Below, one piece after another: positions 19,338 to 62,087 of a stretch of 64,000 nt of DNA. A program made the position numbers and the translations under genes. The first letter of the stretch is position 1, and each line of letters starts with the position of its first letter. This stretch comes from Lotus japonicus (taxonomy: Eukaryota > Streptophyta > Magnoliopsida > Fabales > Fabaceae): contig NC_080044.1 in assembly GCF_012489685.1 (NCBI RefSeq), positions 62,234,732 through 62,298,731 on the forward strand, given 5' to 3'. The notes under the pieces were generated by a model that ran no database searches, was not told the DNA's origin, and saw only the letters and a program-made list of their open reading frames with translations.

Positions 19338-20747
19338 GTGAGGGCTACTCACTGAACTATTAGCTAATGCTTTAGGTGTCGACGTATTCGACTTGATTTA
19401 CTGTTTATGCACTTGGTTGTGTTTTACTGAGAAAATGTTTTCTGAGGCTTCGGCTGACAATGATGATTATTCATCTATTGACTGTTTTTGAGTTTGAATA
19501 ACATGCTATGTGCTAAATGGTTAATCTAGGATGTGTGATATCTGCTCTATATGCTAAGTGTTACGTGGTTAACTTAGGATGTGTTGATATATGAGCTATG
19601 ATTGTTGGACTGTGCTAATTTAACTATGCTATTACACATATGTCTGTGGTACTGGAGAGTGAGGATAGCGGGCAGGTCATGCCAAATTTTTATGAGATTT
19701 TGAGATAGTTTGACGGGACGAACGGAGTTCGGGCCTTGTTATGGTTTTAGTGGATCGAGACATTCTCTGGGAATTATTTGGGATTATGGGATCTTTGAAA
19801 CTCATAGGAAATACGATAAGACTAAAAGGAAACTATTTTACAAGGAAAACTCATAAGATATTAAACAACCTCTAAACCTTTAAATAAAGATAATAATCTC
19901 GGATACAAACTCAGGATTGAATTCTAGTTTTGGAAAATGAGAAGTGTCGTCGAGTCCAAGTGTTGAGGAAGACTAATAGGTTTGGAGTATGTTGATACTC
20001 TTTGCTCGCTGAGCAGTGTTGACCATCGGATGGAGATGAGTCGGATGATTCGGGGAATCATCATGAGATAATGTGTTTTGAAATTAATGGTCTTTTGTTG
20101 CAGAATCGACTTTTGCCTTAGGGTATGCTTTTAGAGACAATAAGTTAGCTAGAACACGTGGCGACGTGTCGAGTGAGGTCGGAGACGTTGTTTGACTAAT
20201 TACTTTGCATTCATGCACTCATTTTGAGGTATTAACACGGGACGAACTCCGGACCTCGGTGGATTCGAAAATGGTCATAAGACCCGGATTTCCGCGTAAG
20301 AGCACTGTTAGGTGACTCTTAGTAGCAGACCGAAATGGCAGGCCTTCGGGTTTTATGCTGATCTGACTACCGTTGTTGTTGGAGTAAGAGGCACGCGGGC
20401 CGAAATGGTCCCACCGTGGCTGGTGCTAGGGCTGATCCGTTGATGTCCATCCCTCCGGAATGCATTTGGTTAACAGGGTTAACCGGCATTGCATTTCATG
20501 CAACATGCATACTGACTTAGTTGCTGAGTGTGATTGATAATTGTTAATCCTTTTTTTGATGCATGCTAATTGTTATTATCGTCTTATATATTCATTGTGA
20601 AACATACAACCCTAGGATGCTATCTTAAACTTATAAGCCTAAGTGGCTATCTCTTATCTTTATCTATTGGAATTATTATTTACATAATTCTTTGGAGTTA
20701 CCCTCGCATCTTCTGTGTGTGTTTTGGCGGACTACGCCCATTGTCAG

Positions 20748-21224
20748 ATGTCTTTGGCGGACTGGTTCACGATGGTCCACCCTTCGGGGGGGACTAGGTA
20801 CGAGATGTTAGATCAGGATGACCCCGGTTCGTGGGTGGTCGACCCCGCTGGCCATCGAGCGACGTACTCGGAGAGGATCATGGAGGATCGTGTCAACAAC
20901 TTAGGACACTTGACGGCAGGAGTGCTGAGGAGATGCACTGTTAGCTTCAACTTGCCACCCGGCGTGCACTGCGGACCCGGAGTAGGAGCACCACCACCAC
21001 CGTCATCTTCGGATGATGAGGACCCCTCGGAGGAGGAGCCTGTGGGAGTGACTTCTTCAGAGTCTAGCTCACCTGCCGTTGCTGTCATTGATGATTTTGG
21101 CTCGGGCCCTAAGCCCGTGAGGCCAACACAGGAGCGCATCGCGGTAGCGAGAGGAGGGAGGACGGTGTACATAGACTTGGTCGTTCTGGATTCAGATTCG
21201 GACGACGATCACGCTAGCACGTAG
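20748..21224 (+). CDS. LTR-encoded 'ADWF' protein, 158 aa
   Basis: It starts at ATG directly after TTGTCAG (possible splice acceptor) with MSLADWFTMVHPSGG. The first ~75 residues look like a compact domain (DPAGHRATYSER, VLRRCTVSFNLPPGVHCGPG). Then come a Pro/Ser/Asp/Glu-rich linker and a short C-terminal block (RIAVARGG, VYIDLVVLDSDSDDDH). A homologous ORF lies in the related LTR family 2 (27164-27824 minus); the N-terminal domains are about half identical by eye. Lying wholly inside an LTR, it would be carried twice by a full element. I recognise no known family. It is intact here, broken in the other copies; function and expression are unknown. Confidence 0.6.
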   Translation: MSLADWFTMVHPSGGTRYEMLDQDDPGSWVVDPAGHRATYSERIMEDRVNNLGHLTAGVLRRCTVSFNLPPGVHCGPGVGAPPPPSSSDDEDPSEEEPVGVTSSESSSPAVAVIDDFGSGPKPVRPTQERIAVARGGRTVYIDLVVLDSDSDDDHAST

Positions 21225-26699: not shown

Positions 26700-27163
26700 T
26701 GTAACACCCCGATTTCCGGGTGTCACTTTAGTAACCAAAAATAAACTTTACGCGGAAAACAGGTAATTTTTTTTCCGCTTGATTCCTTTAAATTAAAGAG
26801 ATAAAGAAATAAAGACATAACCCATCAACTAAACTAACCGATATACAATATATACACATGTACAGCCTCAGCTGCACTCCACGTCACGCGAACCCGTAGT
26901 GACTCCAAAGTAATATGCCCGTAGGCAAATATGTACAACACCAGTAATGTACGCAAAAGTATCAAAATACAATCATCCAAGAGAAATGTCGGCACCCAAA
27001 AATGGCCTGAACTAAAGACCCCTATACTCCGACAGACTCTCTGTGATTCCTCATCAAAAGAACCACACAAAAAGCCACACATCGGGAACCTACCCTGTCT
27101 CAAAAAGTAAGACGATCAGTGCTCTACACAAAAAATGACGCTAGCCTAACCTACCCTCCCAGC

Positions 27164-27824
27164 TCATAGCTCCTCCTCCTCCTCATCGCTGCTCGGCGAG
27201 TAGCTGTCCCCACTGCTCTCGGAGTCAGAGTCGGAATCCACCGTAATCATCTCGGTGTCCAAGTCCATGACCTCCCTCCTAACTGTCCTGCGCACCGTCC
27301 TAGTCGAGCTGGTCTCAACATCCACCTCTCCTGTAAGAACATCCTCCTCCACCACCCAAGGGGTCCACACGGTAGCCGTGCGGTGAAGAGAAAGAAAAGA
27401 GACGTGAGGCAGATGGGACTACAGACTCCCTCTTTGGCCGCACAAGCCTAGAGGACGACGCCACGTCGGTAGGATCAATGGCAGTAGCAGGAGGTGACGC
27501 AACAGGTGTAGCAGCAGCAGGCTCGATCTCCGCTGGGTCCTCGTCATCAGAAGATGAAGCCGGAGGTGGTGCAGGTGGTCCTCGACCAGTACCTGGTCCA
27601 CAGTGAACTGAGGGCGGCAAGTCAAAGCTCAGCTCCATACGTCGTAGTACTCCTCTCGTCAAGCGTCCACGCTCATCAGTCCGGTCCTCCATGACCCTTC
27701 CCCTGTACGTCGCTCGGTGACCAGCCACATCGATGACCCAAGCGGTGGGGGCATCACGATCCACCAACTCATACCTGATCCCCCCCGAGGGAGAGACCAT
27801 CGAGAACCAGTCGGCCATCGACAT
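27164..27824 (-). pseudogene. LTR-encoded 'ADWF' protein, family-2 copy, frameshifted
   Basis: It starts at 27824 (MSMADWFSMVSPSGG) just after CTGCCAG. The N-terminal domain (DVAGHRATYRGRVMEDR, GVLRRMELSFDLPPSVHCGPG) clearly matches 20748-21224. The acidic/Pro-rich linker follows. Near 27370 the frame is lost; the continuing frame encodes an acidic tail ending SPSSDEEEEEL (stop near 27164). One indel separates this copy from an ORF of roughly 220 codons. Confidence 0.6.
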
Positions 27825-28071
27825 CTGGCAGCAGGCCGACCGCCCAAACACAAACATGAAACCAAAACCAAGGCGCTAGGGTCAACTCACGGAAATAAGT
27901 AGATATACACTCAACATGTGACAGGGTATAGATATATATGTTGTTATATATATACGTATAAATAATCCTAGCATGTTATTGGCTCTAACAATGCTTCAAT
28001 AAATCAAGCAGCATACAACTCCACTCAGAATGAATGTATGCGTGAAATGCAATCAATATGATCCGGATAAT

Positions 28072-28269
28072 TGTGACGCGTTCCCGTTCGCCACAGGTGA
28101 AGCATTCCCGTTCTTCACTAGTGAAGCATTCTCGTTCTTCACTCTTGGTGAACCATTCCCGTTATTCACCGTATGATGAACCATTCCCATTATTCATCAA
28201 TAATGCATTGGTGAACCATTCCCGTTATTCACCAAATGATGCAATGGTGAACCATTCCCGTTATTCACC
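28072..28269 (-). repeat. Array of short palindromes, loop class AACGGGAA, in the LTR of G
   Basis: Seven hairpins: 28072-28095 (decayed), 28097-28118, 28120-28143, 28147-28170, 28174-28199, 28210-28233 and 28246-28269. The loop core (ATTCCCGTT on this strand) is nearly constant. The stems differ but still pair: GGTGAA/TTCACC, GATGAA/TTCATC, GTGAAG/CTTCAC. The matching array in the solo LTR is at 57698-57839. Confidence 0.85.
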
Positions 28270-28354
28270 ATATGATGCAATATGGTTAGCCAAACATCGA
28301 ATCGTCCTCACAACACAAGTGTTTAGCTCAAACCCAATATCAAAACAGACCCAA

Positions 28355-28532
28355 GAGTTAGTGTCTGTCAATACAACACAACTCGGAGTTAGTGTCGGTC
28401 AATACAACACAACTCCAACAACCATAGAACCCAAGGGTTTAGTGTTGGTCAATACAACACAACCCCAACAACAAGAGCACTAAGTGTCGGTCAATACAAC
28501 ACAGCTCCAACAACAAGAGTACTAAGGTACTC
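28355..28532 (-). repeat. Array of palindromes, GTGT..ACAC class, in the LTR of G
   Basis: Units at 28355-28384, 28386-28415, 28435-28465 and 28475-28507 share the core GTCAATACAACAC with inner stem GTGT/ACAC. The outer stems are GAGTT/AACTC, GAGTT/AACTC, GGGTT/AACCC and GAGC/GCTC, all paired. A perfect GAGTAC-TAAG-GTACTC hairpin closes the array at 28517-28532. Confidence 0.85.
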
Positions 28533-29072
28533 GGTGACTTTCAATCATCACCGTGGTTCACCCCCCCGTGGTGTCCACCAAAAATCTCCCAAAACCCACA
28601 TCAAAAGTCGACTTTTCCCCGTCCTTCAAAATTATTTTCCCCTTTAGTTTTCCTATGCTTAAACGTTAATAAAAATTATTTCGATTCAAATTAGTCAAAT
28701 TATGATTTTATTTCTCAAAGTCTAAGTTTCCCAAAGTTTCTATTTTTCGAAAGTCTAATCATTCTAAGTTTCCAAAGACCAACCACCCAAAAGAAATTTC
28801 CCGGGGAAAGTCTAAGAATACGAACAAATGGCTAAGTCTCAAAGCCCACATTTGAACTTGCCTAGGGTTGTTTATCCAACCCGAAATACCAACTTCAATC
28901 AGTTCAGAGGTTCCCCACTCCGAAGTCGCGTCAAAAAGCACAATCCAACAATATCACAAGTTATGGAAAACATCATAACATCACTCATCATCATAATCAA
29001 CATCAGATAAAGCATAAGTCGAATTTATCGACGCCTATCATGCAATCATAGCTAATAGTAAGTTGCCCTAAC

Positions 29073-29150
29073 CTCGAGCTGCTCCAGTCTCGTGGTTCAA
29101 ATATCCTTCACACGAATGCTCTGAAGATCCCAAAGTTCCTTCAACTGAAC
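29073..29150 (-). other. 78-bp exon-like block in the LTR of G
   Basis: Minus strand: TTCTCCGAG acceptor side, CTCGAG/GTTAGG donor side, exactly 78 bp. The frame beginning SVEGTLGSSEHS is open, as in the other three copies, although the alternative frame has a stop here. Confidence 0.5.
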
Positions 29151-29952
29151 CTCGGAGAAAAGCAAAGCAGAATCCAAACAAAATCGATCAGTTCGATCAC
29201 AATACAACTCATAAACGATAGACAAAGCATTAAAGCTTCAGAATACATCAGTCGGATGCGAAAAGACAAGTTTTCGAAAACGAAAACTCCCCCCCCCCTC
29301 ACAACATAGCTCTCGGCCATAAAGGAAAAAGAGCTCCGGCTCTTTTTCTTCGATCTAATCAGTTTACAAGGTAGTTTTAGGGTAAAGCTAAGGCAAAGAA
29401 ACTGTCGGAAAAATTTTCGGACGATCGGATCGAATTACGGCTATTCAGGGGCGTTTTGGTCCAAAATAAAAGCTCAAAACCTCAAAGTTATCACTTCGGA
29501 AAACAAATTTGACAGCAATGATCCTAACGACATCCGTAGCAACAAATCATAAAGGTACGAAGTCAGATTACGACTTTTCGACAGTAAAGTTTCGAAATGT
29601 GCGACAAAAGGGGTTTTGAATCAGTTTTTCAGATCCTTGACAACTCGATCCATAACGGCGAATACTGACGAAGGTTTTAGGCTCTTGGGCACGTAGGGAA
29701 GATAACCCAACATAGAAATCAGGAAAAACGGACAGTTTTACAAAAAGCTCAAAACTTTGCGCACAGAAACGACTACAGAAATGTAGTAGAAATAGTGATC
29801 AGAGGTAAGAATCAAGCTAATTACCTCGATACCTTGAAGTAGGAACGAACTGCACGAAGATCGGTCAAGTTTCGGCGAAAATCTTTTCTCTCCTCTTCTC
29901 CCCTAAACTCGCGGCCCCAAGAGAAAGAAATGAGAAGATATTTTGAAATTTT

Positions 29953-29965
29953 GGCTATTTATAGG
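29953..29965 (-). promoter_or_regulatory. TATA box of the G LTR
   Basis: CCTATAAATAGCC on the minus strand, downstream of a TCGCGAAATTTTC block. It aligns with the TATA box at 56015-56025 of the solo family-2 LTR. Confidence 0.65.
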
Positions 29966-30655
29966 AAAGTGAAATCGCGGAAAAATGAAAATTTCGCGAT
30001 TCCGATTTTTGCAGCACGTTCACCGAAGAATTCTAAGAGAGATTCTGGCATCAGAATTCCAGAACTCAAAACAAATCTCAGACATTTGGGAAAAACGATA
30101 TCTAAAATCCCAAAAGCGGTGTATGTTAATCTGTCCCGAAAAACTACTTTTTGCTGTGATGGTCAGACGACAAAACTTTGTTCTGGAGAAAGATTGGAAA
30201 TGTCGAAACAAATCTGGCATCGCGAACGGAAACTTCGTTAGAAGTCCCGAATAGAAAAAGTCTTCATCCAGCGCTTGAATTTAGGGTTTCGAAGCAAAGA
30301 AATTAGCGTCGTCGAACATCCGAAAAGTGAATACTATTGTACGTACAGTCCAGGGTTCCGAAATGAAACGCTGGTCGAAGGAAAAATAAAGAGAACCTTT
30401 AAATTTTCCAAGGATTCGAAATCTCACCTAATACGTTGCTCTAAAAGCGAAATTAGCCTATTCTGGACACTCTCGCCATAAGGCAGGTGTGCAGACGACT
30501 CGCACTAATTCCTACAGTGACTACACAACATTCCTCAAGCAATTCCTGAACTTTCTTCTTCATTAATCTTTCTCAAACAGCAAACTCCTGTCACGCTTAC
30601 ACTGATTCTGCGCGTGAGTCGGAAATTAACTTGTTCTGTAAATCCAGGTCTTACA

Positions 30656-32602: not shown

Positions 32603-33286
32603 TGTAAGACCCAAGTTTTTAAGTTATGTCAAGTGAATAAAATCCTATTCACGATTAGGGTTGATGTATCGTGAAGGGAAACCTGAACAAGAGTTGACCA
32701 AATGAAATAAATTTATGAAGGAGAAAGTTCAGGAAAAGTCTAAGGATTGTATCAAAATTGATAAAAGGTATAGCACGATCGATTCGCTTAAACCTAGGAC
32801 AAGAACCTTAGGAAAAGACTAAGTTCCACCCTTGGAACACTATAGGAATAATTCCAAAAATCTTCAAGAGGAATATAAGACTTTCTCTTATTCCTTTTTA
32901 TAACAATCGTTTCAAGGCGAAACTCTAGGATGTACGAACGTCCGATTCCAATCCTCGGAAGTTTGCCGAAACTAAAACCCTAATAGTTCAAGAACCCTAG
33001 AATCAACCGACGATGAAGACTTTTTCTATTCGGAGCTTCAAATGAAGATTCCACCCGCGTACACCCATTTCTCTTGATGATTTCAATCTTTCTTCAGAAG
33101 GAAGTTTTCTATTCCGACATTCGATGCAAAATGTAACTTATCGGATAAAATAGTTTTACACCGACTTTGCATTAGTCGCCTAAAATACAAGGAGACCTCT
33201 TTTTAGTTTTGGAATTCTTTCGCCAAAACCTATCTTAGAATTCACGGAGAATGAAGCCGGAAAAATCGGAATCGCGAAACTTTCAT

Positions 33287-33318
33287 TTTCCCGCGTTTTT
33301 CCATCCTCTATATATAGC
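33287..33318 (+). promoter_or_regulatory. E2F-type site and TATA box of LTR family 1
   Basis: TTTCCCGC (33287-33294) matches the E2F consensus TTTSSCGC and lies about 15 bp upstream of CTCTATATATAGC (33306-33318). The solo family-2 LTR has the same pair at 55996-56025. Binding is inferred. Confidence 0.5.
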
Positions 33319-34119
33319 AAGAAAGATGAGAAAAATCACAAAATCTTACCCATTTTCTCTCTTGAACCCGCGAGCTTTGGAGGAGGAGGAGGAGAAGATA
33401 TTTTCTTCATTTCTTGCTTGATCGTTGATTCAACAGTTGCTACTTGAAGGTATCGAGGTATAGTCGCTAATCCTTACCTCTGATCGTCTTTTCCGTAGCT
33501 TTTCACTATGTCTTTCTGTGCTCATAGTTTTGATGTTTTTGCAAAACTATCCTGAATACTTCATTTTTCTATCAAAACATCTTCCCTACGTGCTCTTGAG
33601 CGTGTTTAGCAAATAATATTACGCCGATCCTCGAAAAACTACCGTCGAGTTTCAATTCTGCTTAAAATACCCATTTTGGGGCAAAGTTCCGTCCTTTGGG
33701 CTGAAAACTATCGCCTTAGCTTAGTGCTAGTAGGATTAGTCGTCATAAACGTCGTTGGTGACGTCCCCATCCTATTTGTTTTTCGAAATTTCAGTTTTGA
33801 AATTCTGAGCTAAAAATATTGACCAAAATACCCCTGCGACAGTTTTTGATCCGATAATTTTTCCGAGTTTAGAATACCCTTAGTTACGACTAATGATAAC
33901 CTAGGAACCAAGTTTGATCGAAGAAAAATCGACCCACCTAATTACCAATAGTGGCCGAGAGCTATAGAGGAGGAGGAGGAAAATTTCTTTTTCAAAAACT
34001 TGTCCTTTCGCGCTAGATTATCGTACCTCACAGTATGTACTACTTCGTGAAACCTTAGTGAGTATTGATAGCTTAGTTTCCGATAGATTTTGATGGAATT
34101 CTGTGGTTTTACTCTAAAG

Positions 34120-34197
34120 GTTCATTTGAAGAATTTCCCGAGGAACAAGGCTTTGCTTGTGAAGAAGAGTTAGAGGAGAACCCTGGAGAATCTACAG
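34120..34197 (+). other. 78-bp exon-like block in LTR family 1 (second copy)
   Basis: CTCTAAAG precedes it and CTACAG/GTGAGG ends it. The acidic frame (SFEEFPEEQGFACEEE) is open; the alternative frame has a TAG. Confidence 0.5.
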
Positions 34198-35686
34198 GTG
34201 AGGGCTACTCACTGAATCCTTAGTTAATGCTTAGGTGTCGATGCTTTCGACTTGATTTACTGTTTATGCACTTGCTTGTGTTTGACTGGAAAATGTTTTC
34301 TGAGGCTTCGGCTGACAATGTAGATGATTCATCTACTGACTGTTTTTGAGATTGACTTACATGCTATGTGCTAAGTGGTTAATCTAGGATGTGTGATATT
34401 TGCTTATATGCTAAGTGCTAAGTGGTTATGTTAGGATGTGTTGATATATATATGACTTGTTGATTGACTGTGCTGATTTAACTATGCTTTTTCATATATA
34501 CTGTGGTTCTGAGGAGTGAGAATAGCGGGCAGGTCATGCCGATTTTTATGAGTGTTTTGAGAGAGTTTGACAGGACGAACGAGGATTCGGGCCTAGTTTT
34601 GTTTTAATGGATCGAGACATTCTCTGGGAGTGATTTGGGATTAGGAGATCCTGAAAATTTATAAGATTTGCGATAAGACAAAATGGAATCTATTTTATAA
34701 GGAAAACTCATAAGACATTAAACAACCTCTAAATCTTTAAATAATGATAACAATCTCGAAGGAAAGTTTAGGAGTAAAATCTTAGTTTTGGAAAACGAGA
34801 AGTGTCGTCGGATCCAAGTGTTGAGAAAAGTATAAGTTTTGAGTATGTCGGTACTCTTGTGCTCTGGGAGCAGTTGTGTTGTTGGGCTATCTGAGAGATA
34901 AGCCGGGAAACAGGTAGTTTCCGAGTATGTTGATACTCTTTGCTCGTTGAGAAGTTTTGACCATCGGATGGAGATGAGTCGGATGATTTGGAGATCATCA
35001 TGAGAGAATGTGTGTTGTTGAAAGAAGTGTCTTTTGTCGCAGGATCGACGTTACCTTAGGGTAAGCTTTTAGAGACAATAACTTAGCTAGAACACGTGGC
35101 GACGTGTCGAGTGAGGTCGGAGACGTTGTTTGGCTAATCATTTCGCATTCATGCACCATTAATGAGGTATTAACACGAGACGGACTTCGGACCTCGGTGG
35201 ATTCCAAAATGGTCATAAGACCCGGATTTCCGCGTAAGAGCGCTTGTAGGCGACTCTTAGTAGCAGACCGAAATTACAGACCTTCGGGTTTACTGCTGAT
35301 CTGACTACCGTTGTTGTTGGAGTAAGAGGCACGCGAGCCGAAATGGTCCCACCGTGGCTGGTGTTAGGGCTGATCCGTTGATGTCCATCCGTTCCGGAAT
35401 GCATTTGGTTAACTGGGTTAACCGTCATCTGCATTTCATGCAACATGCATACTGACTTAGTTGCTGAGTGTGATTGATAATTGTTAATCCTATTTGAAGC
35501 ATGTTAATTGTTATTACTGTCGTTTATATTTATTGTAGAATATACAACCCTAGGATGCTATCTCTAGCTATAAGCCTAAGCGGCTATTCTCTTATCTGTA
35601 TCTATTGGTGATATTACCTACATAATTCTTTGGAGTTGACCCTCACGTCTTCTGTGTGTGTTTTGGCAGACTACGCCTATTGTCAG

Positions 35687-36144
35687 ATGTCTTTAGCGGA
35701 TTGGTTCACGATGGTCCACCCTTCGGGGGGGACTAGATATGAGATGATAGATCAGGATGACCCCGGCGTCTGGGTGGTTGACCCCGCTAGCCATCGAGCG
35801 ACGTACTCGGGGAGGGTCATGGAGGACACTTGATGGAGGGAGTGCTGAGGAGGTGCACTGTCAGTTTCAACTTGCCGCCCGGAGTGCACTGCGGACCAGG
35901 TTTAGGAGCACCACCACCACCGTCATCTTCTGATGATGAGGACCCCTCAGAGGAGGAGCCTGTGGGAGTGACTTCTTCAGAGTCCAGTTCACCCACGGTT
36001 GCTATCATTGATGATCATGGTTCGGGCCCTAAGCCCGAGAGGCCAGCACCGGAGCGCATCGCGGTTGCGAGAGGAGGACGGGTAGTGTACCTAGACTTGA
36101 TCGTTCTGGATTCGGATTTAGACGATGATCACGCTAGCATGTAG
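35687..36144 (+). pseudogene. LTR-encoded 'ADWF' protein, frameshifted copy
   Basis: It begins MSLADWFTMVHPSGG after TTGTCAG at 35687. A 19-bp deletion near 35828, with GGA on both sides in the intact copy, shifts frame and gives a TGA at 35831-35833. The remaining acidic C-terminal part continues in another frame to GCATGTAG at 36144. Confidence 0.75.
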
Positions 36145-36626
36145 GATTGAGTGTTAGTGTGAGCTCCTCGAGATAGGATTAGTGTAGGAGTAGAGTCTTA
36201 GCTCTGACTGTCATTTGTTTCTTTGGGGACAGGGTAGTTTCCCACCTATAGTTTGTGTGGTTCCTTTACGGGGATCACAGAGAGTTGGTTGGACTTAGGA
36301 GGTCTTGTTTCAGGCCGTTGGGCCAACTTATTCTCATTTTTGAAGGTGTGTGTGTTGCGGACACTCAACCTTTCCTTATTGTTTGTACATATTGCCTACG
36401 GGCGTTACACTTTTCTACTTTCCGTCACTGGAGGTTACTCCTGACGAGGTTGCTACTTACAGCGGGGCTGTAATTTTATATTGTATATTAGTTCTGATTA
36501 TCTTTTATTGTTGAGTTTCATTTCTTTCAGTTTATTACTCCTTTATCGAAAAAAAAATATTCACGTTTTTCCGCTTAAGTTTCTTTTTGGTTACTAAAGT
36601 GACGCCACCGAAATCGGGGTGTTACA

Positions 36627-39864: not shown

Positions 39865-41070
39865 TGTAAGATCAAGTTTTGATCTAGTAGTACAACTCTA
39901 TGTTTTGATGATTACAAGTTAACCTTTTGATATGAACAATTGTGGTACTCTAACGTGTTTTTCTGAGTGTGCTATTTACAGGCTCTGACCTCAACTCAAT
40001 CTCACACAAATCAGAAGCACTGTGTATAAAGAGCGACCCAAGCAACGCTTTCGCATTCACCATGTTCAGTATGAACAGTGGAAAAGCTTTAGAAGTTCTG
40101 AAGTTATACAAACTCTGATGTGGACTCAGTCACTAGAAGTTCTGAAGATCCAGAAAGTCTGATAACCAAGAAACACTGAAGGCTCAGATATTCTGATGGT
40201 GTAGAAGACTCTGAAGATCCAGAAGCTGATTAGTGAAACTCTGATGTCCAGAAGCAAGATACTCTGAAGACCATGTTCTTCCCTCTGAGTTCAGAATCAG
40301 AAGAAACAATGGTCAGAGGATCTGAGCTTTCCCTCTGACTCTGATCAACCGGCTTCACAAGTTCCAATATGAAGTATTCCCCTGATCAGAAGTCTCCTAG
40401 GTTTAAAGGTCAAGTCGCTATCCAAGTACAAAAGCAACTGTACCTTCCTGACGACCTACCTAACAGTCTCAGACACAGCAGAAGCTGGATTTTCCAGAAC
40501 TGCCCTCCAACGGTAGCATTTCCCATGCAACGCTCAACCCTAATCCTTGGAGTATATAAAGAGGCTGAAGACTGAAAGAAGCGGCTAGAAGCATTCACAT
40601 ACGCGCAAGACAAATTTAAATTCTTCTAAGCTTTCTTTCATCTGAAATTCATTGAGTTTACTATTAGCTTTTTAGAAGCAAATCTCTTGTAAACAATTCT
40701 TTGATAAACAGTTTGTTTAGTTCCTTTAGGAGATCAAGGCTGATCGGATCCTAGAGAAGACTAAGAGAGTGAATCTTAGTGTGAGCTAAGTCAGTGTAAT
40801 TGTTAGTCACTTGTAGGTTTCAAGTGCAGTTGTAACTCTTACCTGATTAGTGGTGCCTTCATTCTAAGAAGGAAGAAATCACCTTAACGGGTGGACTGGA
40901 GTAGCTTGAGTGATTTATCAAGTGAACCAGGATAAAATCCTTGTGTGCTTTTCTATCTCTTATCTTTAGCACTTAAAGTTCTCGAAAGATTTGTCAAAAT
41001 ATTTAAGGTGGAAGCTTTATACTGAAAACGTTATTCAAACCCCCCCTTTCTACCGTTTTTCTTACCTTCA
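39865..41070 (+). repeat. 5' LTR of element D
   Basis: TGTAAGATCAAGTTTTGATC to CTTACCTTCA. The first bases include the palindrome GATCAA-GTT-TTGATC, kept in all copia LTRs here (C has GGT as its loop). Confidence 0.97.
40507..40561 (+). promoter_or_regulatory. LTR promoter of element D: CCAACGG box and TATA
   Basis: CCAACGG (40507-40513) lies about 40 bp before GTATATAAAG (40552-40561). The pair has the same spacing in A, B and C. CCAACGG resembles the core of plant M-phase (MSA) elements bound by MYB3R proteins; that role is inference. Confidence 0.6.
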
Positions 41071-41072
41071 AT

Positions 41073-50787: not shown

Positions 50788-51995
50788 TGTAAGATCAAGT
50801 TTTGATCTAGTAGTACAACTCTATGTTTTGATGATTACAAGTTAACCTTTTGATATGAACAATTGTGGTACTCTAACGTGTTTTTCTGAGTGTGCTATTT
50901 ACAGGCTCTGACCTCAACTCAATCTCACACAAATCAGAAGCACTGTGTATAAAGAGCGACCCAAGCAACGCTTTCGCATTCACCATGTTCAGTATGAACA
51001 GTGGAAAAGCTTCAGAAGTTCTGAAGTTATACAAACTCTGATGTGGACTCAGTCACTAGAAGTTCTGAAGATCCAGAAAGTCTGATAACCAAGAAACACT
51101 GAAGGCTCAGATATTCTGATGGTGTAGAAGACTCTGAAGATCCAGAAGCTGATTAGTGAAACTCTGATGTCCAGAAGCAAGATACTCTGAAGACCATGTT
51201 CTTCCCTCTGAGTTCAGAATCAGAAGAAACAATGGTCAGAGGATCTGGGCTTTCCCTCTGACTCTGATCAACCGGCTTCACAAGTTCCAATATGAAGTAT
51301 TCCCCTGATCAGAAGTCTCCTAGGTTTAAAGGTCAAGTCGCTATCCAAGTACAAAAGCAACTGTACCTTCCTGACGACCTACCTAACAGTCTCAGACACA
51401 GCAGAAGCTGGATTTTCCAGAACTGCCCTCCAACGGTAGCATTTCCCATGCAACGCTCAACCCTAATCCTTGGAGTATATAAAGAGGCTGAAGACTGAAA
51501 GAAGCGGCTAGAAGCATTCACATACGCGCAAGACAAATTTAAATTCTTCTAAGCTTTCTTTCATCTGAAATTCATTGAGTTTACTATTAGCTTTTTAGAA
51601 GCAAATCTCTTGTAAACAATTCTTTGATAAACAGTTTGTTTAGTTCCTTTAGGAGATCAAGGCTGATCGGATCCTAGAGAAGACTAAGAGAGTGAATCTT
51701 AGTGTGAGCTAAGTCAGTGTAATTGTTAGTCACTTGTAGGTTTCAAGTGCAGTTGTAACTCTTACCTGATTAGTGGATTGCCTTCATTCTAAGAAGGAAG
51801 AAATCACCTTAACGGGTGGACTGGAGTAGCTTGAGTGATTTATCAAGTGAACCAGGATAAAATCCTTGTGTGCTTTTCTATCTCTTATCTTTAGCACTTA
51901 AAGTTCTCGAAAGATTTGTCAAAATCTTTAAGGTGGAAGCTTTATACTGAAAACGTTATTCAAACCCCCCCTTTCTACCGTTTTTCTTACCTTCA
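50788..51995 (+). repeat. 3' LTR of element D
   Basis: 1208 bp, near-identical to the 5' LTR. Differences seen: T/C and A/G substitutions in U3, an A/C substitution near the end, and a 2-bp indel at GTGG(AT)TGCC. Confidence 0.97.
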
Positions 51996-52022
51996 ATCCA
52001 GAACCTTGGTAAAAAACAAACA

Positions 52023-55319: not shown

Positions 55320-55995
55320 CTTTCTGTAAGACCTGGATTTTCAGAACAAGTTAAGTTTCCGACTCACACGTAGAATCAGTGTAAGCGTGACAGGAGTTTG
55401 ACATTTGAGAAAGATTAATGAAGAAGAAAGTTCAGGAATTGCTTGAGGAATGTTGCATAGTTGTTTTCGGAGTTAGTGCGAGTCGTCTGCACACCTGCCT
55501 TATGGCGAGCGTGTCCAGAATAGGCTATTTCGCTCTTAAAGCAACGTTTTGAGTGAGATTTCGAACTCTCGGAAAATTTCAAGATTCTCTTTATTTTTCC
55601 ATCGACCAGCGTTTCATTTCGGAACTCTGGACTGTACGCACGATAGGTTTCACTTTTCGGATGTCCGCCGACGCTAATTTCTTTGCTTCGAAACCCTATT
55701 TTCGAGCAATGGATGAAGACTTTTTCTATTCGGGACTTCTAACGAAGATTCCGTCCGCGTTGCCAGATTTGTTTCGACGTTTCCAATCTTTCTTCAGTAG
55801 GAAGTTTTGTCGTTTGAGCATCACAGCAAAAAGTAGTTTTTCGGGACAGACTAACTTACACCGCTTTTGGCGTTTTGGATATCGTTTTTCCCAAATCCTA
55901 GATATTTGTTTTGAGTTCTGGAATTATGATGCCAGAATCTCTCTTAGAATTTCTTGGTGATCGTGCTGCAAAAATCGGAATCGCGAAATTTTCAT

Positions 55996-56025
55996 TTTCC
56001 CGCGATTTCGCCCGCCTATAAATAG
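55996..56025 (+). promoter_or_regulatory. E2F-type site and TATA box of LTR family 2
   Basis: TTTCCCGC (55996-56003) and CCTATAAATAG (56015-56025), preceded by TCGCGAAA. The same arrangement is at 33287-33318 in family 1; in the LTR of G the E2F box has one change. Confidence 0.5.
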
Positions 56026-56826
56026 CGCGAAAAAGCAAAATCCTCCCATTTTGCACCATTGGAGCCGCGAGTTCTTGGGAGAGAAGGGAGGAGAAGATTT
56101 TCGCGAAACCTTGACCAATCTTCGTGCAGTTCGTCCCTACTTCTAGGTATCGAGGTAACTAACACGATTCCTACCTCTGATTGTTGTTTCTGTTGCGTTT
56201 CTGAAGTCGTTTCTGTGCTCTAAGTTTTGAGCTTTTTCTAAAATTGTCCGATTTCTCTGATTTCTCGCTTGGGTTATGTTCCTTATGTTCCCCTGAGTCT
56301 AAAACCTCTGTCAGTAAACTCTGATTGCGATTCAGTTGTCCAGGATCTGAAAAATTGACTCAAAACTCTTTTTGTCTCACATTTCGAAACTTTATTGTCG
56401 TAAAGCTATAATCTGACTTCGTGCCTTTAGGATTTGTTGTCACGGATGTCATGAGGATCGTTGCTGTCAAATCTGTTTTCAGAACTGATAACTTTGAAGT
56501 TTTGAGCCTTTATTTTGGACCAAAATGCCCCTGGATAGTCGTATTTCGGCCCGATTGTCCGAAAATTGTTCCGGCAGTTTCTTTGCCTTAGTTTTACCCT
56601 AAAACTACCTTGTGAATTGACTTGGTCAAAGAAAAAGAGCCGAAGCCCTTTTTCCTTTGTGGCCGTGACCTTGTAGTGTTGGGGAGGGAGTTTTCGTTTT
56701 CGAAAACTTGTGTTTTCGTACCCGATTGTCGTCTTCTGAAGCTTTAATGCTTTGTCTATCGTTTATGTGTTGTTTTGCGATCGAACTAATCGATTTTGTT
56801 TGAATTCTGCTTTGTTTTTCTCCGAG

Positions 56827-56904
56827 GTTCAGTTGAAGGAACTTTGGAATATTCAGAGCAACTGTTTGAGGACAACCTTGATTTCGAAGCTGGAACAGCT
56901 CGAG
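56827..56904 (+). other. 78-bp exon-like block in LTR family 2
   Basis: TTTTTCTCCGAG before, CTCGAG/GTTAGG after, 78 bp. The frame SVEGTLEYSEQLFED is open. Confidence 0.5.
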
Positions 56905-57494
56905 GTTAGGGCAACTTACTATTAGCTATGACTGCATGATAGGCGTCGATAAATTCGACTTATGCTTTACTTTGATATTGATTATGATGATGGTTTATTG
57001 TTATGAATGTTTTCATAATTTATGATGTTGATGTTGTGTTGGATTGAGCGTTTTGACGCGACTTCGGAGTGGAGATTCATTGATCTTGTGATCTTTGACA
57101 TTTCGGGTTGGATGAACAACCCTAGGCAAGTCCAAACGAGGGGTTTGAGGCTTAGCCATTTGTTGGGATTCGTTTGAATACTTAGACTTTCCCCGGGAAA
57201 CTTCTTTTGGAGGGTTTTTGGAAAACTTAGAATGATTAGAATTTCGAAAACTAGAGACTCTGGGAGACTTAGACTTTGAGAAGTAAACTCATAACTTGAC
57301 TAATTCAATTCGAAACGTTTTTACTAAACGAATAATCATAGGAGAATTAAAGGGGAAAATATTTACGAAAGACGGGGAAAAGTCGGCTTTTGTTGTGGGT
57401 TTGGAGAGTTTTGGAATTGGGGAAAGCCACTAAGGTGAGCTATGGTGATGATTGAAAGTCACCGAGTACTCTAGTACTCTTGGGAGTGTTGTTC

Positions 57495-57613
57495 GAGTCG
57501 TGCTGTATTGACCGGCACAGACTCTGGGCTTTGTTTGTGGGTTTTGTGGTGGGAGTTGTGTTGTATTGACCGACACTTACTCCGAGTTGTGTTGTATTGA
57601 CCGACACTAACTC
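57495..57613 (+). repeat. Palindrome array, GTGT..ACAC class (solo family-2 LTR)
   Basis: Units 57495-57524, 57552-57583 and 57584-57613 share the core TGTATTGACCG. The first has outer stem GAGTC/GACTC and inner stem GTGC/GCAC. The others have GAGT/ACTC and GTGT/ACAC. Both stems of the first unit are changed on both sides. Confidence 0.85.
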
Positions 57614-57697
57614 ATGGGTTTGTTGAGATTGGGTTGTGAGCTAAACACTTCCGTGGTAAGGGCGATTCGTTGTTTGGCTAACCATATTGCATCAATC

Positions 57698-57839
57698 GGG
57701 TGAATAACGGGAATGGTTCACCTGTGCATATCATATAGTGAATAACGGGAATGGTTCACCAAGGATGAATAACGGGAATGGTTCATCCAGGATGGATAAC
57801 GGGAATGGTCCATCCATAGTGAAGAACGGGAAGCTTCAC
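57698..57839 (+). repeat. Palindrome array, AACGGGAA-loop class (solo family-2 LTR)
   Basis: Five hairpins at 57698-57721, 57737-57758, 57762-57787, 57789-57814 and 57817-57839. The loop keeps AACGGGAA. Stems: GGTGAA/TTCACC, GTGAA/TTCAC, GGATGAA/TTCATCC, GGATGGA/TCCATCC, AGTGAAG/CTTCACT. Confidence 0.88.
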
Positions 57840-58254
57840 TGAGGCGTGAGACTTCGTGAAAGCATGGAACTTCACTGAAGCGTGAGACTTCGTGAAAGTG
57901 AGTAAGCTTCACTGAGGCGTGAGACTTCGTGAAAGCAGAAACTTCACTGAGGCGGGAGACCTCGTGGAGACGGGAACCTTCGCTGAAGCGGGAGACTTTG
58001 CGGAGGCGTACACCTTTGCTGAAGCGGGAGACTTTGCGGAGGCGTGCAACTTCACTAAAGCGTGAGACTTCGTGAAGGTGTGGAACTTCATTGAAGCGGG
58101 AGACTTCATGAAGGCGCGAAACTTCACTGAAGCGTGAGACTTCGTGAATGCGTGAAAATTCACTGAAGCGTGAGACTTCGTGAATGTGTGAGATTTCACT
58201 GAAGCGTGAGACTTTGTGAAAGCGTAAGACCCCATTGAAGCGTGAGACTTCATG
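57834..58254 (+). repeat. Palindrome array, about twelve units of 26-30 bp (solo family-2 LTR)
   Basis: The typical unit is outer stem TTCAC/GTGAA, 1-nt bulge, inner stem GAAG/CTTC, loop CGTGAGA. Variants keep pairing: CTTCAT/ATGAAG (58085-58112), ATTCAC/GTGAAT (58157-58184), TTTCAC/GTGAAA (58193-58220), CCAT/ATGG (58231-58254), inner GAGG/CCTC (57948-57962). It has no counterpart in the LTR of G. Confidence 0.88.
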
Positions 58255-58594
58255 GAAGCGTGAGATTTCATCGTCGTTTACCCTAGGGCAACGACAGGGA
58301 ACATTGGTTTAGTTGGATACGTGTGTGTTGGGAGGACGATACATTGTTTGACTAACCTTATCACCTAACTTCATATGTTGAGATTATGATGATTTGATGT
58401 TGATGAACATCGTTAGGTAGTAATGATTGAACTGTGTAGGAGATTCGAGAACATGCTATGTATATACCTTAGAGTAGGCAATACATAACTTATATGTATA
58501 TATATACAACATATGTATATATCCCCTTTATCACAAGTTGATTGTATATCTATTGTATTCTGTAAGTTGACCCTAGCGCCTTGGCTTTGTTTGT

Positions 58595-58780
58595 ATGTTT
58601 GTGTTTGGGCGGTCGGCCTGCTGCCAGGCGTCTGTCAGCCGGTTCGTGATGATTCGTTGTGCGGGAAAGACCCGGAGCGGAACGACTATTACTGAAGCTT
58701 TCGACGAGGACCCGGACTTCATGCCTGATCGAGGGAGGGTCGATGATAGTAGTGTGGGGTATGGGTGGTTAGAGTCTTTT
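58595..58780 (+). pseudogene. Remnant of the LTR-encoded ORF in the solo family-2 LTR
   Basis: The lead-in MFVFGRSACCQ matches the sequence before the ADWF start in the LTR of G, but most of the ORF is deleted or diverged (only a short acidic end DEDPDFMPDRG remains). Confidence 0.5.
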
Positions 58781-59320
58781 GGAGTTGGTTGTTACTGTAA
58801 TAGCTCTGATTCGTTTTGCTTTTGGGACAGGGTAAGTTCCCGATGCATGGCTTTTTGTGTGGTTCTCTTACGGAGGGATCACAGTGAGTCAGTCGGACCA
58901 TAGGGGTCTTTGCTTAGGCCATTTTGAGGCCGACTTTCTCCTAGTGGTTTGTAATTATACTTTTTCTCACTCACACTTCTGGATCTGTAAATATTTGCCT
59001 ACGGGCACACTACTTTGGAGTCACTGCGAGTGTGTGTGACGTGGAAGTGCAGCTGAGGCTGTACATGTTTATATTTGATGTATATCGGTTAGTTTAGTAG
59101 TTGGGTTTTGTCTTTACTTCCTTATCGTTTTGATTTAAAGGAAAGAAAACGAAAAAAAATTACCTGTTTTCCGCGTAAAGATTATTTTTGGTTACTAAAG
59201 TGACACCTGGAAATCGGGGTGTTACACTTTCGAATTCAAAAGTTGAATTTTATTTAGTGATAGGATGTTAGTCATGCCACTTTTTTATATATTATTTAAT
59301 TTATTTCATTAGATTAAAAA

Positions 59321-61845
59321 ATGAAGGACAAAGAGTGGACCAAACTTCCAAGGTTTTGTCCAGAGTATATCATGGGCGTTCGTCGATTTTTAGACTTTGC
59401 CTACACTAAAGGAAGACCTCAAGGAGATGAGATTTTATGTCCTTGTGCCAAGTGTAGAAATCACTGTTGGACAAAAAGAAATGTGATATTGGATCATTTG
59501 GTAGCTAACGGCTTTCTAAAGGGATATGATGTTTGGGTCCACCATGGGGAGCAAATAGAAAGGCCAATGGAAGTTGATGATATTATTGCAGATCAAGAGG
59601 ACTCACATGACGACATTGGTGGCTTGTTGCACGACACATTTCGAAATGTGGTAGAAGCAGAAGTTAGTGAGGGTCCTAATGAGGATGCTAGAAAGTTCTT
59701 CAACTTGGTTAATGAGGCAAAGCAGGAGCTATACCCAGGGTGCAAGGACTTCTCCACCTTGTCATTCATGATTCGACTGTATTTGTTGAAGTGTCTTCAT
59801 GGGTGGAGCAATGCCTCATTCACCGCCCTCTTAGAACTATTGAAAGAAGCGATGCCTAATTTAAACATTCCTTCATCTTTTAACAAGGCAAAGTCCATGA
59901 TTAAGGATTTGGGCCTTGATTATAAAAAAATTGATGCATGTCCGAATGATTGCATGTTATATTGGAAAGAGCATGCCAATGACAACTTTTGTTGTGTTTG
60001 TGGAGATTCACGGTGGAAGGAAGTTTCCCAAGCAGATTGTGGGTCCGAGCAAACAAAAGATGATTATAAAGTTCCTGCAAAAATTTTGAGACATTTTCTG
60101 TTGATTCCTAGACTTCAAAGGTTGTTTATGTGTTCAACGACAGCCGAGTCAATGAGATGGCATGAAGAGGAGCGCTCAAAGGATGGGAAATTGAGACATC
60201 CTGCTGATGGTCAAGCATGGAAGGACTTTGATCAGCATCATCTTGATTTTGCTTCAGAGCCTCGCAATGTAAGACTTGGCTTAACCAGTGATGGATTCAA
60301 TACTATGAGCATAGCTCACAGTACGTGGCCTGTCATGATGATGGTATACAACACTCCACCTTGGCTCTCTATGAAATCTGAGTATACAATGCTTTCATTA
60401 TTGATTCCTGGACCAAAATCACCAGGAAATGATATTGATGTATACCTTCAGCCACTGATAGAAGAGCTAAAGGAATTGTGGGAGTATGGAGTGCAGACAT
60501 ATGATTCCTCAAAAAATGAAACATTTCAAATGCGTGCAGCTCTTTTGTGGACAATCAGTGATTATCCTGGGTATGCTATGTTGTCAGGTTGGAGCACCAA
60601 AGGAAAATTGGCATGTGCATGTTGTAATTACAACACCAATTCAGTCTACCTCAGACACAGTCATAAGATGTGTTATATGAACCACTGTGTGTTTTTGCCA
60701 ACGCTTCATCCTTGAAGAGATGATGAGAAGTCCTTTAATGGAGAAAAAGAACTTAGGACTCCACCACCCAAGCTAGAAGGTGAAGAAATCCAAGAAATCT
60801 TAAAAAAATTCCCAAATGAGTTCGGGAAAAAGAAAAAGAAGAAAGTTGATGGCCCGTGGAAGAAGAGGTCGATATTTTTTGAGTTGCCTTATTGGGCTCA
60901 AAATACATTACGTCATAATCTAGATGTAATGCATATTGAAAAAAACATTTGTGATAGTATTCTTGGGACTCTTTTGGACATTCCAGGGAAGACAAAGGAT
61001 CATGTTAATGCTCGTTACGATCTACAAGATATGGGAATTAGAAAAGAACTACATCCAAGGGAGATTGGTGGAGGTCGTTCAGAGTTTACAAAAGCATGTT
61101 TTTCAATGACTTCGGAAGAAAAGTCCATTTTCTGTGGAGTTATAAAGGCTGCTAAATTACCAGATGGGAGTGCATCAAATATTTCGAAGTGTGTGCACAT
61201 TGTTGATAAGAAAATATCTGGTTACAAGAGTCATGATGCACATTTCATGTTGCATTACTTGTTGCAAATAGCAGTAAGAAGCACAATGCCGAATGCGGTG
61301 GCCACACCTCTAATTCGTCTTGGTTCCTTTTTCCGTGCTATATGTCAGAAAGTTATCCAAGTGCAAGATTTGGATTACTTAGAAGCGGAGATTGTAGAGG
61401 TGCTTTGTCAGTTGGAGATGATTTTTCCTCCTAGTTTCTTTGACATAATGGTTCACTTACCTATGCATTTGGTTAATGAAGTCAGATACGGTGGTCCCGT
61501 TCAATTTAGATGGATGTACCCCACGGAAAGGTACTTGTGTAAACCTAAGACATATGTTCGTAATAGAGCTTATCCAGAAGGTTCTATTGCCGAGGGGTAT
61601 TTGGCTGAAGAAGTTTTAACTTTTTGCTCAAGATATTTAAATAAAAGTGTAGAGACAAGGTTGAACAAGAAGGGTCGAAATTATGATAATAGTGATTCAT
61701 GTGAAGTAGATTTTGATGATTACTTTTCAAGTATTGGTCGTCCTTTAGGAGGGGCAGGTAAACCATTTTCTCTAGATTTAAGAACGAAGGCTGATGCACA
61801 TCGATATCTCTTATTCAACTGCGATGAAGTTCAAAATTACATCAG
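59321..61845 (+). pseudogene. CACTA transposase (TNP2 type), one nonsense codon
   Basis: It starts at ATG 59321 (MKDKEWTKLPRFCPEYIMG). The N-terminal transposase-associated domain (CPCAKCRNHCW, HGE) is followed by the TNP2 core (TALLELLKEAMPN, YKKIDACPNDCMLYW, CCVCGDSRW, MRWHEE, FNTMSIAHSTWPVMMMVYN, PPWLSMK, CACCNYNT, NLDVMHIEKN) and a DUF4218-like end (VHLPMHLVNEVRYGGPVQ, RWMYPTERYL). TGA at 60713-60715 replaces the Trp usual in this HPWR-type block; before and after it the same frame is open. A likely donor follows NYIR at 61845. If unspliced, the frame stops at 61894. Function: cuts the CACTA ends for transposition. Confidence 0.88.
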
Positions 61846-62087
61846 GTATTTGAATATCTTTTTGTTAGCCTTGATTGCAATTATTATAAAGTAGGTTAAG
61901 TTCCTCAATTTCTACTAAATTACATTACATGTTTCTTGACAGCATTTTAGAATTTCATAATGAACTTAAAAGATACACCAACCAAATTAGTATGACAATT
62001 AGCATATAGACACATCTTATCTCATCCTTGTTTCTGAAATTTATATTATATAAATACTAATCTACTTTTTTTTATTCTCAACAGAAA

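Follow-up and report, generated by a model that had tools for sequence, protein, structure and literature searches.

A long terminal repeat (LTR) of Lotus japonicus, lying in a 64,000-nucleotide stretch of contig NC_080044.1 (hereafter the window), carries 20 hairpins of three repeated types, H1 (five units), H2 (three) and H3 (12), whose stems change in pairs around conserved loops. This LTR, referred to as F, is compared below with G, the 3' LTR of a Ty3/gypsy element in the same window. On most measures, the paired change exceeds that found in shuffles, with slid partners and under a tree-based null, in a sample of few and related units. The favoured reading, with a probability of about 0.48, is that the structure of a leader RNA is under selection, the loops being recognised and the stems needing only to pair. 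The two LTRs and their hairpins are as follows.

55325–59226, plus strand: F, a solo LTR of about 3.9 kb with the ends TGTAAGACC...GGGGTGTTACA and a CTTTC target duplication on both flanks; it aligns with the 3' LTR of G
26700–30655, minus strand: G, 3' LTR of a Ty3/gypsy element, 3' of the RNaseH-integrase open reading frame (ORF) 32618–30693
57698–57841, plus strand: H1 array in F, the feature originally noted; five hairpins with loop AACGGGAATG
28095–28270, minus strand: H1 array in G; six hairpins, with a decayed seventh at 28073–28094
57495–57613, plus strand: H2 array in F; three hairpins with loop TATTGAC (UAUUGAC in RNA)
28354–28509, minus strand: H2 array in G; four hairpins
57833–58259, plus strand: H3 array in F; 12 hairpins with a period of about 36, CTTCAC-t-GAAG-C(GUGA or GGGA)GA-CTTC-GTGAA
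57443–57464, plus strand (G counterpart 28532–28553): single hairpin GGTGA/TCACC, with weak covariance-model rows (E 4.6–6.3)
57464–57479, plus strand (G counterpart 28517–28532): single hairpin GAGTAC-TCTA-GTACTC, taken from the sequence, with the form GAGTAT-GTTG-ATACTC in two related LTRs, A1 and A2

Hairpin types and paired change in their stems

The initial annotation described five adjacent palindromes with the loop AACGGGAA at 57698–57839, and these are present (57698–57841) with the stems that it quoted. Its list lacked the second unit (57736–57761), which has the arms AGTGAA/TTCACC with one outer A-C mismatch, and its limits proved too narrow, as the zone is longer and richer, with hairpins from about 57443 to about 58259. 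The same loop had been claimed for the G LTR, where it indeed occurs five times on the minus strand (28081–28262). In the whole window, AACGGGAA has 10 matches against 1.10 expected, a number reached by none of 100 shuffles. The H1 loop is better taken as the 10-nucleotide AACGGGAATG; its closing pair is T-G in 8 of the 11 units and G-C in the other three, and GGG is present in 10 of the 11 loops.

The two other types have the same design. The H2 loop TATTGAC is identical in all seven units, while the stems covary (GAGTC-GTGC/GCAC-GACTC versus GAGTT-GTGT/ACAC-AACTC). In H3, which was not found in G, the stems vary in pairs (TTCAC/GTGAA, TTCAT/ATGAA, GAGG/CCTC), and the caps are C-GUGA-G in 8 of 12 units and C-GGGA-G in 4, conforming to the GNRA tetraloop rule and changing at N alone. 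Every exact H1 loop (10/10) and H2 loop (6/6) in the window lies in the sense orientation of its LTR. Chance palindromes are rejected for both LTRs, since F has 25 perfect hairpins (stem of at least 6, loop of 6–14) and G has 27, whereas 40 shuffles average 7.7 and 7.5 and never exceed 14 and 12, respectively. Covariance models R1 and R2 gave convincing scores to array units alone (E <0.01 in 11 of 41 and 12 of 36 rows, respectively); the decayed seventh H1 unit of G scored 12.6 bits (E 1.1).

Paired change was assessed in 11 H1 units, 10 of them distinct (five from F and six from G, omitting the decayed seventh), and in 12 H3 units, 11 of them distinct. In H1, 93.8% of the alignment cells in the stems are paired, and 12 cells are changed on both sides, compared with a shuffle mean of 4.7; for H3, the values are 94.5% and 8 cells, compared with 2.0. 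None of 500 shuffles reached either count, and the number of pairs with a double change was reached in 13 of 500 (H1) and 8 of 500 (H3). When the partners are slid by 1–3 columns, only 25–54% of cells pair, in H1 and H3 alike. The H3 arms show 91.7% Watson–Crick pairing within a unit, against 80.0% and 81.8% with the neighbouring units, and permuting whole 3' arms among units never reproduced the observed pairing in 5000 trials for either H1 or H3. For H2, 76 of 77 cells pair (P 0.0008 by 3' arm permutation) in an alignment made by hand, which favours pairing.

A further null takes the relatedness of units into account by scattering over the tree of units as many changes as each column shows, with the outermost pair of H1 and H3 omitted. 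Under this null, H3 gives 0 of 5000 for cells paired, P 0.0006 for covariation and P 0.0106 for cells changed on both sides; H1 gives 0 of 5000 for cells changed on both sides, P 0.0038 for covariation and P 0.0144 for cells paired. Covariation above the null thus stands together with loop conservation, the combination looked for in a maintained RNA stem-loop family, in a few related units. The claim of a maintained stem-loop made in the initial annotation gains from these results, from the two added hairpin types and from the loops shared by F and G, and it competes with the template-switching alternative named there as well.

Loop conservation and competing explanations

When the zones of F and G are aligned, the two copies differ at 2 of 70 loop sites, 21 of 146 stem sites and 47 of 234 other sites. 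Loop conservation of this degree has P 0.0034 by random placement of blocks of the same size, and it is attained in 2 of 462 circular shifts. Among the stem pairs, 8 have changed on both sides where 1.46 are expected (0/20000). This is one pair of copies, in which the alignment of repeats matches like with like and so somewhat overstates conservation. Within the H3 array, the mean pairwise difference is 0.069 for the loop, 0.217 for the stem and 0.417 for the spacer, the last from the 9 of 11 spacers that are 5 nucleotides long.

The most serious competitor, a doubtful but substantial one, is a mutational origin without selection: single-stranded DNA would fold into hairpins in the course of reverse transcription or replication, the polymerase would use one arm as template for the other, and the units would multiply by unequal exchange, so that each paired change would be the product of copying. 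In yeast, template switching is documented to homogenise the arms of short inverted repeats (PMC8604942). The yeast cases differ from the present one in lying in protein-coding genes and in showing spacer inversions, whereas here the exact H1 and H2 loops are all in LTR sense. Loop conservation weakens this account, because template switching leaves loops to drift and they should diverge like the spacers. The retained T-G pairs, found in 8 of 11 H1 and 6 of 7 H2 units and able to pair in sense RNA, speak for selection on RNA, because equalisation of the arms would remove them. In H3, moreover, loop changes are confined to the N of GNRA, and an exchange that evens out loops yet not the adjoining stems of the same 26-nucleotide unit is hard to picture. 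On balance, the conserved loops and the persistent T-G pairs weaken the template-switching alternative of the initial annotation, and leave it with appreciable weight.

Several observations weigh against selected RNA structure, and part of them favour neutral copying. The expected energy signal on the sense strand was not consistently found in three stretches folded on both strands. Only the H1 array of F folds better in sense (folding z −2.48, against −1.32 in antisense); antisense folding is at least as strong in the first 295 nucleotides of H3 (57836–58130; −1.65 sense, −3.18 antisense) and in the hairpin chain of A2 (−1.90 and −5.68), and a fold scan in 120-nucleotide windows was likewise mixed in strand preference. 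Over H1, H2 and H3, G-U cells outnumber A-C cells by 26 to 9; counted by eye as separate events, however, the excess is about 7–8 to 4 and not significant. Further pair types do not exceed shuffles (reached by 334 of 500 for H1 and 88 of 500 for H3). Among the 73 stem pairs aligned between F and G, 60 show no change and 4 have changed on both sides while still pairing in each copy; pairing is absent from 8 in G and from 1 in F. The array units are related by duplication, which makes the samples small, and the H1 change from T-G to G-C has no single-step intermediate that pairs and is easier as one copying event. Finally, F has no coding sequence, being a solo LTR, and the corresponding place in related LTRs holds hairpins of other sequence (A1, A2) or a tandem repeat of its own (A0) that has a folding z of 0.00 in sense, with lower values in antisense windows (−3.4 at position 481 of the LTR piece).

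It is improbable that the palindromes act at the DNA level, as binding sites of a protein from the host or the element or as enhancer-like repeats. In favour of this are the symmetry of palindromes in DNA and the frequent enhancer activity of tandem arrays in LTRs, but DNA binding sites would be expected to have conserved arms and a tolerant spacer, whereas here the arms vary in pairs around a fixed middle, in a zone 1.4–2.2 kb downstream of the TATA box. Scarcely credible is a translated antisense repeat: open frames extend for 196 codons across H3 and H1 in F and for 145 codons across H1 and H2 in G, and translated short contigs match them, but over H3 the minus strand is open in two frames, as expected for a stop-free period divisible by three, the H1 stem changes alter antisense residues (GEPFPLFT, DEPFPLFI, DGPFPLSI), and the matching antisense frames in F contain stops.

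The presumed leader, the elements and related copies

The favoured reading of selected RNA stem-loops places the hairpin zone in an RNA leader, and the zone lies in a presumed leader because it is 3' of a TATA box common to the two LTRs. It spans approximately LTR positions 2120–2935 of F, which is 1.4–2.2 kb downstream of that box, and the earlier statement that the arrays lie downstream of a TATA box is thereby borne out; transcription of the F and G copies is presumed.

56017–56023, plus strand: TATA box of F, TATAAAT within CCTATAAATAGC, LTR position 693

The TATA box of G (29963, minus strand) also has LTR position 693. A2 has TATATAT at LTR position 707, and no TATA box was found at the corresponding place in A1. 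A TATATATA-rich block (58497–58522 in F; 27932–27954, minus strand, in G), possibly a second promoter, separates the hairpin zone from the location of an ORF within the LTR. The ORF, of 158–169 codons (MSMADWFSMVSPSGG...), is located inside the LTR, 3' of the hairpin zone, in two LTR families.

27824–27315, minus strand: LTR ORF in G
20748–21224, plus strand: LTR ORF in A1
35687, plus strand: start of the LTR ORF in A2, broken after 48 codons

No ORF start of the MSMADWFSMVSPSGG type was found in F by motif search. Between A1 and G, the ORF shows a dN/dS of 0.28 over 129 codons (dS 1.1). Its A1 form and two L. japonicus relatives had no Pfam match at E up to 10. Over 91% of the query, the G form shares 91% identity with a protein of L. 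japonicus, and all five named proteins among its eight matches are from L. japonicus.

F had to be reclassified as a solo LTR, CTTTC being duplicated on either flank. TG...CA ends with a target-site duplication on both sides occur in F (CTTTC), A1 (TTGCA) and A2 (TTCCT); A1 and A2 are solo LTRs of a family related to F and G, and A0 is a third copy truncated by the window start. The 5' LTR of G was not located. The reverse transcriptase (RT), RNaseH and integrase domains of a Ty3/gypsy pol gene were found: a Pfam scan places RT in ORF 37418–36597, and ORF 32618–30693 contains RNaseH, H2C2, SH3_Tf2-1 and a weak rve (2.5e-5, under the Pfam cut-off). Both pieces are provisionally assigned to G because the RNaseH domain is split between them. 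The A2 solo LTR (32603–36626) seems to be inserted within this pol gene, splitting that domain. The designation of the element as a chromovirus remains plausible given an RNaseH-integrase ORF with SH3_Tf2-1, but a chromodomain was not detected by Pfam in the whole ORF (E 0.001) or in its last 80 residues (E up to 10), which gave just two insignificant rows against PDB (E 0.44 and 0.84). The C terminus of the integrase may resemble plant chromodomains, and the lineage is presumably of the Tekay/Del type of Ty3/gypsy. Elsewhere in the window, two repeat copies resembling copia LTRs (39865–41072 and 50788–51997) are 99.6% identical, and the copia element that they would delimit is therefore probably a recent insertion. 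CACTA-type transposase ORFs (59318–61894; Transposase_21, DUF4218) follow immediately after F.

The A-family LTRs show a less clear hairpin zone, supported by fewer hairpins than in F and G.

34841–34999, plus strand: A2 hairpins at the corresponding place, GAGTA-TGTCGG-TACTC, GGAAAC-AGGTA-GTTTCC, GAGTAT-GTTG-ATACTC and GATGAT-TTGGAG-ATCATC
19985–20062, plus strand: A1 hairpins, GAGTAT-GTTG-ATACTC, TGCTC-GCT-GAGCA and GATGATTC-GGG-GAATCATC

Perfect hairpins number 15 in A1 (shuffle mean 7.35, maximum 14), 13 in A2 (8.3, maximum 16) and 2 in A0 (3.05), with 40 shuffles each. One hairpin can be followed across both families: the form GAGTAC-NNNN-GTACTC of F and G has its counterparts in GAGTAT-GTTG-ATACTC, present in both A1 and A2, and in GAGTAT-GTCG-GTACTC, which occurs elsewhere in A2, so that a single pair appears in three states, C-G, T-A and T-G. 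At 493–617, the place that corresponds to the hairpins of F and G, A0 has about five tandem copies of GTGCTGTTGGAGCA with short, invariant stems.

Translated short contigs indicate that H1 and H3 arrays exist in copies beyond F and G. Of 7993 candidates sharing most words that were scored, P0009 and P0010 match the antisense of H1, the residues of P0010 fitting the co-changed forms, and P0010 and P0011 match H3, P0011 being otherwise like A2; all three are known as translations, in which codons leave third bases free. A loop confined to the two LTRs, the outcome that the initial annotation had set against its own claim, is partly answered by the fit of P0009 and P0010 to H1 units. Viral contigs held no stretch with the exact H1 pattern, H2 or H3; three viral-contig stretches with a looser H1 pattern (L001–L003) carry one AACGGGAA each on the counted strand and no array, and are attributed to chance. 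Rfam gave no match in the window at the gathering score. A literature search by title and start of abstract, with subscription papers mostly outside it, returned no covarying hairpin arrays in plant LTRs.

Possible roles and comparison with known systems

If the RNA reading holds, the zone would be a chain of stem-loops that a Ty3/gypsy transcript carries in its long untranslated leader, with each hairpin type combining a fixed loop with a stem required only to pair. The loops would most likely be read by a protein, with the Gag or nucleocapsid of the element itself as the first candidate, or they may pair with another copy of the element RNA. Many weak sites could then jointly mark genomic RNA for packaging or dimerisation; tandem duplication would alter the copy number, and selection on pairing and loop sequence would keep the units alike in form. 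Repeats of this kind, fixed in the loop and free in the stem, are reminiscent of multi-site recognition elements. Packaging or dimerisation is a first guess, and translation past the leader would be the next candidate role.

A bolder and unlikely extension is that the zone persists by form and not by sequence, LTR families refilling the same place with newly amplified types, and that fixed loops are read by the machinery of the element while drifting stems may evade host silencing RNAs of 21–24 nucleotides. Examples of such refilling would be H1 and H2 in F and G, H3 in F and, by translation, in an A-like copy, and the GTGCTGTTGGAGCA repeat in A0.

Ty1 and retroviral leaders have a few distinct hairpins near the primer site, and the barley element BARE belongs to the Copia superfamily. 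F differs from the former in its 20 hairpins of three repeated types, ending about 1–1.4 kb before the LTR end, and from the latter in being Ty3/gypsy. The likeness to the packaging and dimerisation stem-loops of Ty1 and retroviruses, as far as the sources describe them, lies in a structured 5' leader of an LTR element (PMC5454406, PMC7395439). BARE is likewise a plant LTR element for which conserved dimerisation and packaging signals are mentioned, and the passages of that source contain no hairpin array (PMC3735527). The alphavirus packaging signal of the nsP1 type may offer an analogy, having repeated hairpins with a fixed loop and the GGG that also occurs in the H1 loops; in the part of the review concerned, disrupting its stems or GGG abolishes preferential packaging (PMC8233893). 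It differs in belonging to an unrelated virus and in its coding-region location, the H1–H3 array being in an LTR and known from sequence alone.

According to the same passages on BARE, "fairly little" is known of the packaged RNA of plant LTR retrotransposons outside that element (PMC3735527). If the favoured reading is true, the 20 fixed-loop hairpins with their covarying stems would constitute a cis-acting signal open to direct testing, and the many copies of it would supply a ready set of natural variants. Should template switching have produced the array instead, it would document that process densely within a retroelement.
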